Notes under the pieces: model-generated
The model's input: the letters and a program-made list of their open reading frames with translations, nothing else
Told to the model about the DNA's origin: nothing
Database searches by the model: none
Program-made: the position numbers and the translations under genes
Origin: a virus
Virus record (IMG/VR): IMGVR_UViG_3300025872_000285
Location: 1 to 25,062 of that record
Reading direction: 5' to 3' (one strand)
DNA: 25,062 nucleotides
Shown here: one piece after another, positions 1-22,194 of the stretch
How positions within the stretch are numbered: position 1 is the first letter of the stretch
How the letters are laid out: every line of letters begins with the position of its first letter

Positions 1-356
1 TCTTTTTCAGCATCCTTAAATGTAACATACAATTGTTTGATGAGAGCCTCATTTGCCGTAAGCAATGCCCCAGCCATGGCCTTGGGGGTGGGGGACACAT
101 CTTTAAAAGTGATGGTCCGCATCTCAATAAACTTCTGTAGATTGAACGGAGCGTACTCGTCCAACTTCCGCAGATTCTCCGCAATGGGGTCAATAGACCC
201 ATAGGCATCTTCATAAATGTCTGAGAAAAGACCATGGTATTGGCTGAAGTCTTCGCCTTCCACATTCCAATGGAAGCCATGGGCCATGAAATAGAAAGTC
301 ACGACATCTGAGAGAAGAGCCTTGAGCGACTTGGTGAGTCCGGTGCTGGATGCCAT
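1..356 (-). CDS. dps: Dps-like ferritin, 3' end cut by window edge
   Basis: The start is the ATG at 356, preceded by TAAGGAG with good spacing; 118 codons are visible before the window ends, against about 150-170 for full Dps proteins. Dps proteins form dodecamers that oxidise and store iron and protect DNA. The N-terminal helix and the family signature are clear: HWNVEG at residues 29-34, then F37, H41, D56 and E60, followed by NLRKL. H29, H41, D56 and E60 match the ferroxidase positions of Dps in both identity and spacing. The position of the further metal-binding Asp, four residues after H41, is S45, with D46 next to it. The missing C-terminus prevents judging DNA-binding tails. It is divergent from the replication array and has its own likely promoter. 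Confident as a Dps/ferritin-like protein; activity is unproven. Confidence 0.88.
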   Translation of the reverse strand, partial: MASSTGLTKSLKALLSDVVTFYFMAHGFHWNVEGEDFSQYHGLFSDIYEDAYGSIDPIAENLRKLDEYAPFNLQKFIEMRTITFKDVSPTPKAMAGALLTANEALIKQLYVTFKDAEK

Positions 357-556: not shown

Positions 557-1774
557 TTGACCAACAAGATTCAGGGGCCGTTTGCCCCAATGCCAATATG
601 GGCATTTGACCTGATTAGCAAGCGTGGAACGCCCACGCACACGCACATCTTGATGACCGTCATGCGCCTGACACCCCTGTCCGGGCCCAAGCCCATGACC
701 GTTGCCGTCCTCGCCCAATCTTCGGGGATGTCCCCCGAGACTGTTAAGCGCTCTCTCCGATGGCTGGAGTCAGCCGGAATCATCTCGTCTGAACGCCTGT
801 CGGGGAACCGTGGGAAGCACATCGTGGTGCGCTTCAAGCCACCCAAAAGGGGGGTCACCCATGACCCCACCCTACCCCAAGGGGGGGTCACCCATGACCT
901 ATCAGGGGGGTCACTGGTGACCCCACCCCGAGCCTCTGAGCAGGGCGAATTCCATAGTAGAGATAGTATTAGAGACATAGTACAAAGGGAAATGTCTAAA
1001 GACATTTCCCTTTGTGGGCTTCGCCCATTTTACGAAGGAGAAGAATCCATGCCGATTTTTGGCGCCGATCCCGACGACACCCGTGAATGGGATGAGACCC
1101 CCGCTTTGGAGAAACTCGCTCACGACACGAGTGATGTGCTCCAGCACTTCAATTTCGTGGCCCGTCAGGTCGGAGGGACCCCCGTGGAAGTGAAAGACCG
1201 CCCCGCCTTTCGGGTACAGATCAAGCGTCTTCTGAAAAACGGAGTGACCCCCGCCGACCTCCAGCGGATGATTGAGAAGTTCTTCACTTTCTCCCGCCAT
1301 GTGGAATCCCCAACCTCGTGGAAATCCTTCTGCGCCAACAGCGTCCAAGCATCCCTGCTGTCCGAAGCCACGGAAATCATCGCCGTCAGCCCGATTCTCG
1401 GATGGATTGCGGATGAGTTTGAGCACACCGATGTCCTCCCGTGGGATGAAGAGATCAACACCCGTATTCGGAAACTGATTTGGCGCCGAGCGATGGACTT
1501 GGCGTACACCTACCCCGAACTGCTCGCTGACATCGTCGCCACCCCGGTCTACGACGCCACGCAACACCCCGACGGTACGGAGTTGTTGTCCACGCTTCTG
1601 TTCTCAGCCAGCACGCTCCTGAGCGAACCCGGTGAAGCCTCAGCGGTGGCTTGCCTCACAGAACATGGCGTGAATGTCCCGGATGACTTGATGGGGCATG
1701 CTACTCTCCGCAAACCCGCCGCCTCGCTTCGCCAAGCCGTAGCGACTTACCAACAATTCCGGAGAACCCAATGA
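557..1774 (+). CDS. Winged-helix replication initiator-like protein
   Basis: The TTG at 557 is chosen because AAGGAG (545-550) lies six bases before it; an in-frame TTG at 509 has no ribosome site. The protein has 405 residues. Residues about 45-95 form a winged helix-turn-helix (SGMSPETVKRSLRWLESAG, then a basic wing GNRGKHIVVRF), as in phage replication and replisome-organiser proteins. A glycine- and proline-rich linker with the repeated GGVTHD motif follows, then an acidic helical C-terminal part without a family I recognise. The linker DNA contains three symmetric iterons, an A+T-rich stretch and a perfect inverted repeat, an arrangement like lambda O. The stop overlaps the helicase-loader start (ATGA). 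The initiator role is inferred from the fold, the neighbours and the embedded origin-like DNA; a transcriptional regulator is the alternative. Confidence 0.72.
   Translation: MTNKIQGPFAPMPIWAFDLISKRGTPTHTHILMTVMRLTPLSGPKPMTVAVLAQSSGMSPETVKRSLRWLESAGIISSERLSGNRGKHIVVRFKPPKRGVTHDPTLPQGGVTHDLSGGSLVTPPRASEQGEFHSRDSIRDIVQREMSKDISLCGLRPFYEGEESMPIFGADPDDTREWDETPALEKLAHDTSDVLQHFNFVARQVGGTPVEVKDRPAFRVQIKRLLKNGVTPADLQRMIEKFFTFSRHVESPTSWKSFCANSVQASLLSEATEIIAVSPILGWIADEFEHTDVLPWDEEINTRIRKLIWRRAMDLAYTYPELLADIVATPVYDATQHPDGTELLSTLLFSASTLLSEPGEASAVACLTEHGVNVPDDLMGHATLRKPAASLRQAVATYQQFRRTQ
849..1015. other. Candidate replication origin inside the initiator gene
   Basis: Three dyad sites of the form GGGGTCA-N4-TGACCCC start at 851, 884 and 907. 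The first and third are perfect in both arms (third spacer CTGG); the second has a shortened right arm (TGACC). The first two share an 18-base identical unit (849-866 and 882-899). They are followed by an A+T-rich tract (about 950-1015, about one third G+C by hand count) that contains a 15-bp perfect inverted repeat. Iterons followed by an A+T-rich unwinding region inside the initiator gene is the known layout of lambda-type origins. Origin function is an inference. Confidence 0.6.
982..1015. repeat. 15-bp perfect inverted repeat, 4-base loop
   Basis: Arms 982-996 and 1001-1015 pair perfectly around the loop TAAA. The repeat lies inside coding sequence, where such length and perfection are not expected by chance. 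It sits at the end of the A+T-rich tract beside the three iterons, so it may be part of the origin, for example a single-strand initiation hairpin or primase site, or it may form an RNA hairpin in the initiator transcript. Confidence 0.8.
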
Positions 1775-2373
1775 CCGTAGGAGCACCGCCCACCGAATGG
1801 AAATCGGCACGCTGGTGGCAGAACCGTTCTCTTGAAGAGCGCTTGACATGGGCGCATCTTCCACCGCGATGGCATGGGGCAACGTACACAGCAGACAGGT
1901 TGTCGCCTACGAACGCTTATGCGATTGGGGAGTTTCTCAACGCCGAATCCAAAAGCAACGGACTGTTTCTTCACGGGCCGAGCGGTTGCGGTAAAACACC
2001 CACCGCTGTCGGACTCTTTCGCTACATTCTCACTTCTCACAAAGTGTCCGGCAGGTTCATCACTGCTGAGCGCTACGTTGAGATGCTCAAGGATCAGTTT
2101 GACAACGACAACGAGTTGCCCGAGATGTACTCCATGCCCCACATCGTCAAGTACCTCAAGGGTGTGTTTGACATCGTCGTGTTGGATGCTGTGGGGCAAG
2201 AACGGGCTACTGAGTTTTCGTATCACGAAATCGGAAGCCTGTTGCGTCGTCGCAACGAGGATTGCCGTACCACCATTGTGACAACGCACTTGTCACCCAC
2301 CGAGTTCATTCGTCGGTACGGAGATCGTGTGGCATCGGTTCTTGAAGACATGACTATCGTTCGGGTGGCGTGA
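1771..2373 (+). CDS. DnaC/IstB-like AAA+ helicase loader
   Basis: A 200-residue ATPase that would load the replicative helicase onto DNA opened by the initiator. The Walker A motif GPSGCGKT is at residues 69-76. A Walker B-like strand (VFDIVVLDAVGQE) lies near 128-140, a sensor-1-like TTIVTTHLS near 170, and an arginine (GDRVASVLED) sits near the C-terminus, in the order and spacing of DnaC and IstB proteins. The Walker B acidic pair, usually DD before a hydrophobic-Gly, reads DA, so hydrolysis may be weakened. The ATG overlaps the upstream stop, and the helicase and primase genes follow closely, which supports the loader role. Confidence 0.82.
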   Translation: MTVGAPPTEWKSARWWQNRSLEERLTWAHLPPRWHGATYTADRLSPTNAYAIGEFLNAESKSNGLFLHGPSGCGKTPTAVGLFRYILTSHKVSGRFITAERYVEMLKDQFDNDNELPEMYSMPHIVKYLKGVFDIVVLDAVGQERATEFSYHEIGSLLRRRNEDCRTTIVTTHLSPTEFIRRYGDRVASVLEDMTIVRVA

Positions 2374-2807
2374 TGGAAGGAAACGATCTCGCCGCATTTG
2401 CACCGCTACAGCAAGCCGTCATTTTTGAAGGCGTACTCGCCAATCCTCCCGAGGGCTTGAAGTCGTGGCGTACACGCATCGCCCAACGCACGGGAGATTG
2501 GAAGACCGTTATCAACGCAATGACTCCGAGTGAATTGCCGTTGAAGTCACTCGCAGACTCCGTCAATCGTCGTGGTATCGGAACCATCGTGTATACGTTC
2601 ATGCCACCCGAGGCTGTTGACGCCATTGAACACTGGTTGATTCGTAAGGGCATCTCCACGCCGGTTGAGTCGTACACCGACATTGAGGCGCTCGCAGACG
2701 ACTTGCGCTACAACAGAAGCGTTCGTGTCATCTATGTTCCAACGCAAGAAGAGCAAGCGATTCTCGGTATCCGTGCTACAGTGCTCGGCTCTGAAAGGGC
2801 ATGGTAG
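2373..2807 (+). CDS. Small alpha/beta protein of unknown function in replication operon
   Basis: 144 residues from ATG 2373, with an alternative GTG at 2370; both overlap the loader stop. I do not recognise a family. The predicted pattern alternates hydrophobic strands and helices: GIGTIVYTFM, then a helix with DAIEHWLIRKG, then a strand SVRVIYVP, suggesting a compact alpha/beta domain in the second half. There are no cysteines, membrane segments or visible catalytic motif. It sits between loader and helicase and overlaps the helicase start by seven bases, so a role in the primosome is plausible but not shown by the sequence. Confidence 0.75.
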   Translation: MEGNDLAAFAPLQQAVIFEGVLANPPEGLKSWRTRIAQRTGDWKTVINAMTPSELPLKSLADSVNRRGIGTIVYTFMPPEAVDAIEHWLIRKGISTPVESYTDIEALADDLRYNRSVRVIYVPTQEEQAILGIRATVLGSERAW

Positions 2808-4063
2808 GCATGGCGTCACCGGAACATTTGCTGATCTCTAAAGTCATACAGACCGCTGACATCGCCACCCCAGTCAAGTCAGGGCTCAAGGCTGAGCACC
2901 TCACTGGCGCATGGTCGGAAGTGTGGATGTGGCTCACCGAGTTCTACCGCACACACGGTTCAGTACCCACGCCCCGAGTGTTCAAGACACAGTACGCCGA
3001 CATCCAGTTATACGACGCTGAGGCTGAACCGTTCTCTCGCTTGATTGACGAAATCTTTCAGGCGCACACACAGCATCGCCTCGTTGAAGTCATCTCCGAG
3101 GTCATGCCACTCATCAACGAGGGCAAGACGAAAGACGCTCTTGAACACCTGTCATCGGGTGTGCAAACTGCTTCCGTTGAAGTGTCCCGTATGCGGGACA
3201 TTGACATCATTCAAAACTGGGAGAACCGTGTCGCTCGTTACGAAGAGATGCGAAACACCCCAAACGCTCTTCGTGGTATTCCCACAGGTTTCTACGGGCT
3301 TGACCGCATCACCTCCGGGTTGCGCCCCCAGCAATACATCGTGTTCGTCGGTGAGCCCAAGCGTGGTAAGTCGCTCTTCGCACTTATCATCGCCAACTCT
3401 TGCCACATCCATGGCAAGACCCCGATGTTCGTTTCGTTTGAGATGAGTATTGAAGAGCAAGAGGCTCGTTATGACGCCATCATCTCTAAGACTCCGTACA
3501 ACAAGATTCTCCGTGGCGATCTCACGAAGCCGGAGATGGACCGCATCGCCAAAGCCTTGCGAGCCCGCAAGAACATGCAACCGTTCATCTTCAGTGAGGA
3601 CACCTCGTCACTCACAACGATCTCTGCACTTATGGGCAAGGCAAAGGAATACCAGCCCGACCTCCTCGTCGTGGACGGCGTGTATCTCATGGATGATGAA
3701 GAGGGGGAGCCAAAGGGTTCTCCGCAAGCGCTGACCAACATCACCCGTGGTCTCAAGCGCATGGCACAGAAGTTGGACATCCCCATCGTCTCCACGACGC
3801 AGGCTCTCTCATGGAAGTTGAACAACAAGAAGACCCGTGCCATTACTGCCGATGCCATCGGCTACTCGTCATCGTTTGTTCAGGACGCCGACCTCGTTCT
3901 CGGTGTTGAGCGCAATCCCGACTTGGATGACCAAGCCATCATCCGTGTTGTTGCGGCCCGTACTGCACCAACCGGCGAAGTACACATCAAATGGGACTGG
4001 GACCACATGGACTTTTCGGAGGTGACTGCTGATGGCTACGGTGTCGGAGACGCATTTGACTGA
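2801..4063 (+). CDS. dnaB: DnaB-type replicative helicase
   Basis: A 420-residue RecA-fold helicase that would unwind the fork 5' to 3'. Residues 1-130 form a helical N-terminal domain. The linker and entry signature GIPTGFYGLDRITSGL is at 159-174, Walker A GEPKRGKS at 184-191, and a Walker B strand DLLVVDGVYLM near 285-295, followed by a Q-containing strand (IVSTTQALSW) and a C-terminal segment with conserved arginines (IIRVVAARTAPTGEVHIKWDW). The length fits DnaB and T4 gp41-like helicases. The ATG at 2801 has GAAAGG upstream; ATG 2810 is an alternative. Loader and primase flank it. Confidence 0.93.
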   Translation: MVGMASPEHLLISKVIQTADIATPVKSGLKAEHLTGAWSEVWMWLTEFYRTHGSVPTPRVFKTQYADIQLYDAEAEPFSRLIDEIFQAHTQHRLVEVISEVMPLINEGKTKDALEHLSSGVQTASVEVSRMRDIDIIQNWENRVARYEEMRNTPNALRGIPTGFYGLDRITSGLRPQQYIVFVGEPKRGKSLFALIIANSCHIHGKTPMFVSFEMSIEEQEARYDAIISKTPYNKILRGDLTKPEMDRIAKALRARKNMQPFIFSEDTSSLTTISALMGKAKEYQPDLLVVDGVYLMDDEEGEPKGSPQALTNITRGLKRMAQKLDIPIVSTTQALSWKLNNKKTRAITADAIGYSSSFVQDADLVLGVERNPDLDDQAIIRVVAARTAPTGEVHIKWDWDHMDFSEVTADGYGVGDAFD

Positions 4064-4955
4064 TCTTGCCTCAGTTCTCAAGAGCATCGGCGTAGACGTT
4101 CGCCGTGCTGACGGAAGAGAAATATCAGGGCGATGCCCTGTCCATCGCCGTGTCACGGGTCGTGAAGATGGCTCGCCCTCATGGAGCATGAACGCCCAAA
4201 CCGGGCTTTGGATTTGCTTCTCCTGTGGCGCACGAGGAACGCTCAGCATGTTGGTTTCGGAACTAACGGGTGAGCCGGACGCCATCATGGCAGTTCATCA
4301 TTTCTTGATTGACCGCAACTTGGAACGGCTCACACTCGGAGCCGAGGCACCGGCAAAGAAGCCTGAGATTGACTGGGTGTCCTTTTCAAAGTTCGTCATG
4401 CCTCCGGAGTCTGCGATGGACAAGCGTGGGCTTGACGCTGAGCAAGTACTCATGCATGGGGTTCGCTGGGACACCATGAACAAGGCGTGGATCATTCCTA
4501 TCGTCAACCATTTTGGCGACTTACAGGGCTGGCAGACAAAGGCTTACGGGTGGGTGCGTAACTTTCCCGTTGGAGTAAAGAAGTCGGACAGCCTGTTTGG
4601 GATTGAGCGCTTTCTCGGTGGCACCGCTGTGTTGGTGGAGTCACCCCTAGATGTCGTCCGCTTCGCCAGCGTCTTTGAGAAGCCCCAAGCCTTAGCGACC
4701 TTTGGAGCCGCCGTTTCGGATAAGCAACTTTCCCTGCTGTCCACGGTGGCAGACCGTGTTGTTATCGCTATGGATAACGACGAGGCGGGTATCCGCTCCA
4801 GCAAATCTTTGTTCAACCGTTTGCCCCATTTTCGGAAAGGCACGCTATGGTGGAACTACTCCGGCACCTCAGCAAAGGACATCGGAGACATGACCGCTCA
4901 CGAGATGGCTGAAGGACTATCGTCAGCGTCCCGAGTCCTTCCATGGAACTTGTAA
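4032..4955 (+). CDS. dnaG: Short DnaG-type primase (zinc finger plus TOPRIM)
   Basis: A 307-residue primase. The N-terminal zinc-binding domain has CPVH at 35-38 and C62/C65 (WICFSCG). The TOPRIM core is visible as the glutamate motif (VLVESPLDVVRF, around residue 205) and the aspartate motif MDNDEAG (around residue 250). The protein ends shortly after, so the C-terminal helicase-binding domain of bacterial DnaG is absent, as in many phage primases. The ATG at 4032 has the strong site GGAGGTGA (4018-4025) and overlaps the helicase gene by 32 bases, suggesting coupled translation. It synthesises RNA primers at the fork. Confidence 0.9.
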   Translation: MATVSETHLTDLASVLKSIGVDVRRADGREISGRCPVHRRVTGREDGSPSWSMNAQTGLWICFSCGARGTLSMLVSELTGEPDAIMAVHHFLIDRNLERLTLGAEAPAKKPEIDWVSFSKFVMPPESAMDKRGLDAEQVLMHGVRWDTMNKAWIIPIVNHFGDLQGWQTKAYGWVRNFPVGVKKSDSLFGIERFLGGTAVLVESPLDVVRFASVFEKPQALATFGAAVSDKQLSLLSTVADRVVIAMDNDEAGIRSSKSLFNRLPHFRKGTLWWNYSGTSAKDIGDMTAHEMAEGLSSASRVLPWNL

Positions 4956-22167: not shown

Positions 22168-22194
22168 AGTGGTGTCCCGTAACGGGACACCACT
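22168..22194. repeat. 12-bp perfect inverted repeat before the glycosyltransferase gene
   Basis: Arms 22168-22179 and 22183-22194 pair perfectly around TAA. It lies in the 51-base gap after the lipoprotein stop; the ribosome site GAGGAG begins three bases after it. No T-run follows. It is a strong RNA hairpin that could limit read-through, protect the mRNA or control access to the ribosome site; as DNA it could be an operator. Confidence 0.75.

Follow-up and report, generated by a model that had tools for sequence, protein, structure and literature searches.

The stretch of viral DNA considered here, positions 1 to 25,062 of the IMG/VR virus record IMGVR_UViG_3300025872_000285 (hereafter the window, meaning all of its 25,062 nucleotides), carries a gene for a replication initiator, and within this gene an array of symmetric sites, or iterons, which very probably belongs to the phage's own origin of replication, built after the fashion of bacteriophage lambda. 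Three dyads with the core GGTCA-N4-TGACC lie in the part of the gene that codes for the linker of the protein; behind them come an A+T-rich tract, two hairpins and an internal Shine-Dalgarno sequence, and further downstream the genes for a helicase loader, a helicase and a primase (Table 1). A preliminary description, made from the letters of the sequence, had proposed three copies of GGGGTCA-N4-TGACCCC: those at 851 and 907 are indeed exact, while that at 884 departs from the symmetry. The third dyad is read in a frame that differs from that of the first two, and no DnaA box was found in the window's origin. With up to three mismatches allowed, the window contains four matches to the dyad where shuffling predicts 1.4, which is mildly over chance. 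As isolated matches, then, the dyads of the window say little, and the weight of the evidence comes from relatives.

Table 1. Features of the window that bear on the proposed origin, with neighbouring genes
Feature	Coordinates	Strand	Remarks
Dps/ferritin-like gene	3-356	-	divergent from the initiator
Replication initiator, coding sequence	557-1774	+	TTG start, 405 amino acids
Iteron 1	851-868	strandless	GGGGTCA-CCCA-TGACCCC, exact dyad
Iteron 2	884-901	strandless	GGGGTCA-CCCA-TGACCTA, two mismatches (one in close relatives)
Iteron 3	907-924	strandless	GGGGTCA-CTGG-TGACCCC, exact dyad
A+T-rich tract, proposed DNA unwinding element	944-1007	strandless	from stability and synonymous conservation
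Perfect hairpin	982-1015	+	ACAAAGGGAAATGTC-TAAA-GACATTTCCCTTTGT, 15-bp stem, 4-nt loop
Short G+C-rich hairpin	1015-1027	+	TGGGC-TTC-GCCCA, at the far edge of the A+T-rich tract; missed by the preliminary description
Internal Shine-Dalgarno sequence and in-frame ATG	1035-1051	+	AAGGAG (1035-1040), ATG (1049-1051); missed by the preliminary description
DnaC-like helicase loader	1771-2373	+	phrog_50, E 2.9e-22
DnaB-like replicative helicase	2801-4063	+	PF03796, 8e-35; phrog_19
DNA primase	4032-4955	+	zinc ribbon and TOPRIM

Conservation of the DNA in close relatives

The closest relatives of the initiator gene (L006 and L007/L008, the latter two identical across the region aligned) share 84-88% protein identity with it and differ from the window by about 15-18% of their DNA outside the element, and by far less within. 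Between the window and L006, synonymous changes affect 92 of 299 codons outside the element, none of 20 in the dyad region (P 9e-4) and none of 39 in the 40 codons that come after the dyads (P 2e-6); most other pairs display the same trend of reduced synonymous change. Such changes as do occur inside the dyads of these relatives are confined to the N4 spacer or restore an arm (TGACCTA of the window becoming TGACCCA), and the spacer changes alter the protein, from His to Ser and from Leu-Val to Pro-Met, with the arms of the dyads left as they are. In L006 and L007 site 1 has the spacer CCAG, which on the opposite strand reads CTGG, the spacer of site 3 in the window, and their site 3 carries the spacer of the window's site 1; it looks as though the palindromes at 851-868 and 907-924 had swapped sequence.

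A lattice of dyads in distant relatives

More distant relatives were collected in two ways, with the DnaC-like loader as a protein query and with a blind DNA scan for tandem GGTCA-N4-TGACC, and the two routes converge, since 57 of the 110 stretches found by the blind scan fall in the initiator gene of this same lineage. They lie on metagenomic contigs, several of which are fragments or near-duplicates, so that 84 loci were reduced to 35 distinct initiator genes. All 35 carry three to four dyads in the linker, and do so down to 24% protein identity; the preliminary description had made its claim depend on the persistence of the dyads among relatives, and persistence over such a distance favours it. 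The spacings take the values 22, 23, 33, 34 or 45 bp and no others, which fit two, three and four steps of about 11.2 bp (P about 0.0003 when five distinct spacings are counted, 0.002 with three classes). Some lineages are spaced 22+23+34 and others 45+34, as if a slot had been left empty in a fixed lattice. In one distant lineage only (L015, L018, L020, L031 and L108), a perfect DnaA box, TTATCCACA, is placed between the first two dyads, at position 324 of the initiator gene, and occupies a gap able to hold another iteron.

The dyads occupy two reading frames in each of the 35 genes, so that selection must be acting on the DNA rather than on a repeated peptide. It could have been imagined that the linker repeat GVTHDP is what is retained, the symmetry of the DNA being a by-product, and two of the three window sites do read GVTHDP or GVTHDL. 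Yet the same DNA dyad yields GVTxDP in one frame and GSxxTP in the other, three of the spacings (22, 23 and 34) are not divisible by three, the arms stay in close relatives whose residues differ (H to S, LV to PM), and the linker is predicted to be disordered: a peptide origin of the pattern is hardly credible. The core GGTCA/TGACC is near-invariant and without covariation among 72 distinct sites, which is more in keeping with a protein that reads the sequence than with a structured RNA. In most of the 35 genes the G+C minimum, or the least stable DNA, comes directly behind the array, and in each of the 18 contigs checked the dyads form a single cluster.

The initiator protein

The structure predicted for the initiator, with moderate confidence overall (pLDDT 67), consists of a winged helix at residues about 14-93, a disordered linker at about 96-180 and a helical C-terminal domain at about 181-402, which agrees with the earlier placing of the sites between the winged helix and the C-terminal part. 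A helix-turn-helix motif, S..T.KR..WL, is invariant or almost so in 22 aligned proteins, and the N-terminal part resembles, in sequence and in fold, the DNA-binding domains of Crp, MarR and ArsR type. Fold matches in BFVD are to phage helix-turn-helix, GpO-N and RepA-like phage proteins, with low TM-scores. A search of about 50,000 phage records detected no initiator similar in sequence to the window protein, while its relatives match replication-initiation and O-like PHROGs with E values down to 5e-12, one of them reaching 5e-8 with phrog_678.

This resemblance to regulators is what would be expected if the winged-helix protein were a repressor or an activator and the dyads its operators, acting within its own gene with no origin there at all, and the dyad form is itself typical of operators. 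It is difficult, however, to reconcile this with sites located in the middle of a gene and not at a promoter, all the more as a second cluster at a promoter was seen in none of 18 contigs. Operators would leave unexplained the A+T-rich tract and the adjoining genes for loader, helicase and primase, and the families that the relatives match are those of replication initiation. We consider this explanation distinctly improbable.

A fragile tract, hairpins and a possible internal start

The A+T-rich tract of the preliminary description is well borne out: the 60-bp minimum, starting at 948, has 30% G+C, and by nearest-neighbour energy the 60-mer 948-1007 is the least stable of the 25-kb window. 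The inverted repeat had been described as a perfect one of 15 bp following the tract; perfect it is (it may alternatively be drawn as 16 bp with a 2-nt gap), and it overlaps the tract instead of following it. It is the longest tight hairpin of the window, and is present in the window's clade and in the next one, at about 50% protein identity. Across relatives two of its 15 pairs are altered on both sides and none is broken, a covariation that lends modest support, as there are only four distinct sequences to draw upon. Shuffling of synonymous codons in the region matches the score of this hairpin in 0.3-1% of cases, and the region, folded as single-stranded DNA, has a z of -5.05.

Most other clades have, at the place equivalent to that of the short hairpin at 1015-1027, a different short G+C hairpin with another stem (GACCGC-GA-GCGGTC, GCCGC-AA-GCGGC, GTCGC-AA-GCGAC, GGCC-GAT-GGCC, GGCTG-GGGA-CAGCC); many of these have P < 0.05, not all, and those of L052, L076 and L011 are weak. 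An intrinsic terminator at 1015-1027 was considered and rejected because the run of T is not conserved: it is found in the window's clade only, is replaced by an A-rich run in the next clade, and is missing elsewhere. A few bases further, the AAGGAG sequence sits eight bases ahead of the in-frame ATG, at the start of the C-terminal part of the initiator, and from this ATG a C-terminal isoform of about 241 amino acids might be translated. Its methionine is kept in 22 of 22 aligned proteins, and the Shine-Dalgarno sequence in most lineages, not all.

Features of this kind might suggest an element working at the level of the messenger, in which translation or termination would be governed by the hairpins (982-1027) together with the internal ribosome site, the C-terminal isoform being a product. 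The strong folding, the covarying stem pairs, the internal Shine-Dalgarno sequence and the conserved methionine would be in keeping with it, and in-frame Rep isoforms are known in plasmid pIGRK (PMC6854812). It would nevertheless leave aside the dyads, their helical phasing and the A+T-rich tract, while termination fails as a reading in the second clade, where no T-run follows the short hairpin, some lineages lack the Shine-Dalgarno sequence, and no Rfam family passes its threshold, the best match being 20 bits where 60 are needed. As a full account of the locus it appears very improbable, but such an element and an origin could coexist.

A probable origin of the lambda type

We understand the element as a lambda-type origin of replication of the phage, a reading that we put at a probability of roughly 0.9; that it would belong to the class of origins placed inside the initiator gene is well supported by the sequence. 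An array of repeats, of a size suited to initiator binding and in the form of hyphenated dyads, lies inside the initiator gene under selection exerted on the DNA; an easily melted A+T-rich tract stands beside it, and the initiator, made of a winged helix-turn-helix, a linker and a C-terminal domain, has a loader gene next to it. The case is thus made from the anatomy of the sequence, its conservation, the exclusivity of the sites, the gene neighbourhood and the predicted layout of domains, and it is from these that we infer binding, melting, loading and a role of the hairpins. The lambda-like origin that had been proposed inside the gene is, by comparison with relatives, strongly supported.

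Several points weigh against it. The window protein itself matches O-like or replication-initiation PHROGs weakly, with E values of 0.01-0.02; the 35 genes are not independent and come down to some seven architectures; the long hairpin is limited to the two clades nearest the window; and cumulative GC skew, a check that the preliminary description had put forward, is weak and uninformative in four contigs of 74-94 kb, with no turn at the site.

In the mechanism that we propose, a dimer of the winged-helix initiator would bind each GGTCA-N4-TGACC dyad and, the dyads being three and two helical steps apart, the dimers would stack on one face of the DNA as an O-some, the strain of which would open the adjoining tract at about 944-1007. 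The C-terminal domain of the initiator, together with the DnaC-like loader, would then deliver the phage DnaB to the opened DNA, with the phage primase acting next. On the exposed strand the hairpins that lie at the tract's distal end would probably fold, and may there either delimit the bubble or assist the loading of primase or helicase. A more elaborate picture is speculative, and we think it rather unlikely to hold as a whole: binding slots would form a regular lattice with a period of about 11.2 bp, in which single iterons come and go while the register is kept; the covarying hairpin, at the distal end of the unwinding tract, would serve the phage's own primase or helicase as an ssi-like loading site; and a C-terminal isoform of the initiator would arise from the internal start.

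If the element is an origin, an uncultured phage lineage is provided with an origin that can be tested, and the 35 distinct origins, with iterons varying in number and spacing on a fixed helical register, make a natural data set. With the register fixed while number and spacing vary, the course that evolution has taken can reveal the rules by which O-somes assemble.

Gene neighbourhood

The start of the loader gene overlaps the stop of the initiator gene by four bases (ATGA), and a small gene separates the loader from DnaB. Distant clades (for example L138:5619-6008) have an extra gene of about 113-147 amino acids between initiator and loader, which is not present in the window's clade; it displays a C2H2-like zinc-finger pattern, and no match to it was found in PHROG. 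Almost every relative in the lineage also has a Dps/ferritin-like gene close to its initiator. Far from the element, at 22168-22194, a strong, perfect 12-bp hairpin, AGTGGTGTCCCGTAACGGGACACCACT, is intergenic and probably a terminator.

Dyad arrays in other phages

The blind scan also returned 53 stretches outside this lineage, and 11 of the 14 open reading frames tested among these match replication initiators (phrog_270, phrog_678, phrog_391). A control dyad of the same composition and another sequence gave 52 stretches, with 7 of 20 tested open reading frames being phage replication initiators; the E-value limits of the two tests differed (0.01 and 1e-4), the GGTCA figure being 10 of 14 at 1e-4, and the reading frames tested were in both scans picked by length, not at random. 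That GGTCA is a preferred iteron across phages was rejected, 53 stretches being about what the control yields. It is consequently the dyad array, not the particular sequence, that is general, and tandem dyads inside genes for winged helix-turn-helix initiators seem to be a widespread signature of lambda-type origins, the sequence of the iteron varying from phage to phage. A scan of bacterial genome contigs for dyad pairs gave 50 scattered matches. The arrays in initiator genes of unrelated phages suggest that looking for them could be an easy means of locating lambda-type origins in metagenomic data.

Comparison with known systems

The initiators that the window protein's relatives match, those of phrog_270, phrog_678 and phrog_391, include several named members which, unlike the window, are without GGTCA dyads; none were found in named relatives of the phrog_270-type proteins, from Arthrobacter, Pseudomonas and Escherichia phages. 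Judged by DnaB (35%), Streptomyces phage LuckySocke is one of the closest phages; its gene 104, which from its position is the best candidate for an initiator, contains no dyad array. Iteron plasmids (P1, F, R6K, RK2, pSC101) have, as the window has, phased repeats adjoining an A+T-rich unwinding element, but the repeats of the window are dyads and are contained in the initiator gene; an origin of the plasmid kind, with direct-repeat iterons and a monomeric Rep, was discarded on account of these dyads.

It is with lambda that the likeness goes furthest. The origin of lambda, as those of the lambdoid phages P27 and 933W, is located in the linker-coding part of a gene for a winged helix-turn-helix initiator. 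Its iterons are inverted repeats of 18-19 bp with hyphenated symmetry, bound by O dimers, and there are four of them, one dimer each (PMC5043065, PMC6022878), with a region of 39-40 bp rich in A+T adjoining them (PMC5043065, PMC6022878, PMC7466680). The iterons annotated in the record of lambda have spacings of 20, 24 and 23 bp and fall in three reading frames, and the 60-bp G+C minimum, directly after them, is 30%, the value found in the window. The next gene codes in both for a helicase loader, with the same ATGA overlap of four bases at the O-P junction. There are differences: the dyad of lambda is TCCCTC-N5-GAGGGA (iteron 1 contains it as TCCCTC-AAAAC-GAGGGA), where the window's lineage has GGTCA-N4-TGACC; the spacings of the lineage extend from 22 to 45 on a phased lattice; the loader of the window is an AAA+ protein of DnaC type, unlike lambda P; and the phage, unlike lambda, encodes its own DnaB and primase. 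The preliminary description had taken the dyad form and the hairpin for departures from lambda, marking perhaps a distinct type of origin. This has to be abandoned: the lambda iterons are themselves hyphenated dyads, and straight after its A+T-rich tract lambda has an inverted repeat of 28 bp, GTCAGAGAATTCTGGCGAATCCTCTGAC, imperfect where that of the window is perfect over 15 bp and covarying. The layout of the element is the layout of lambda.
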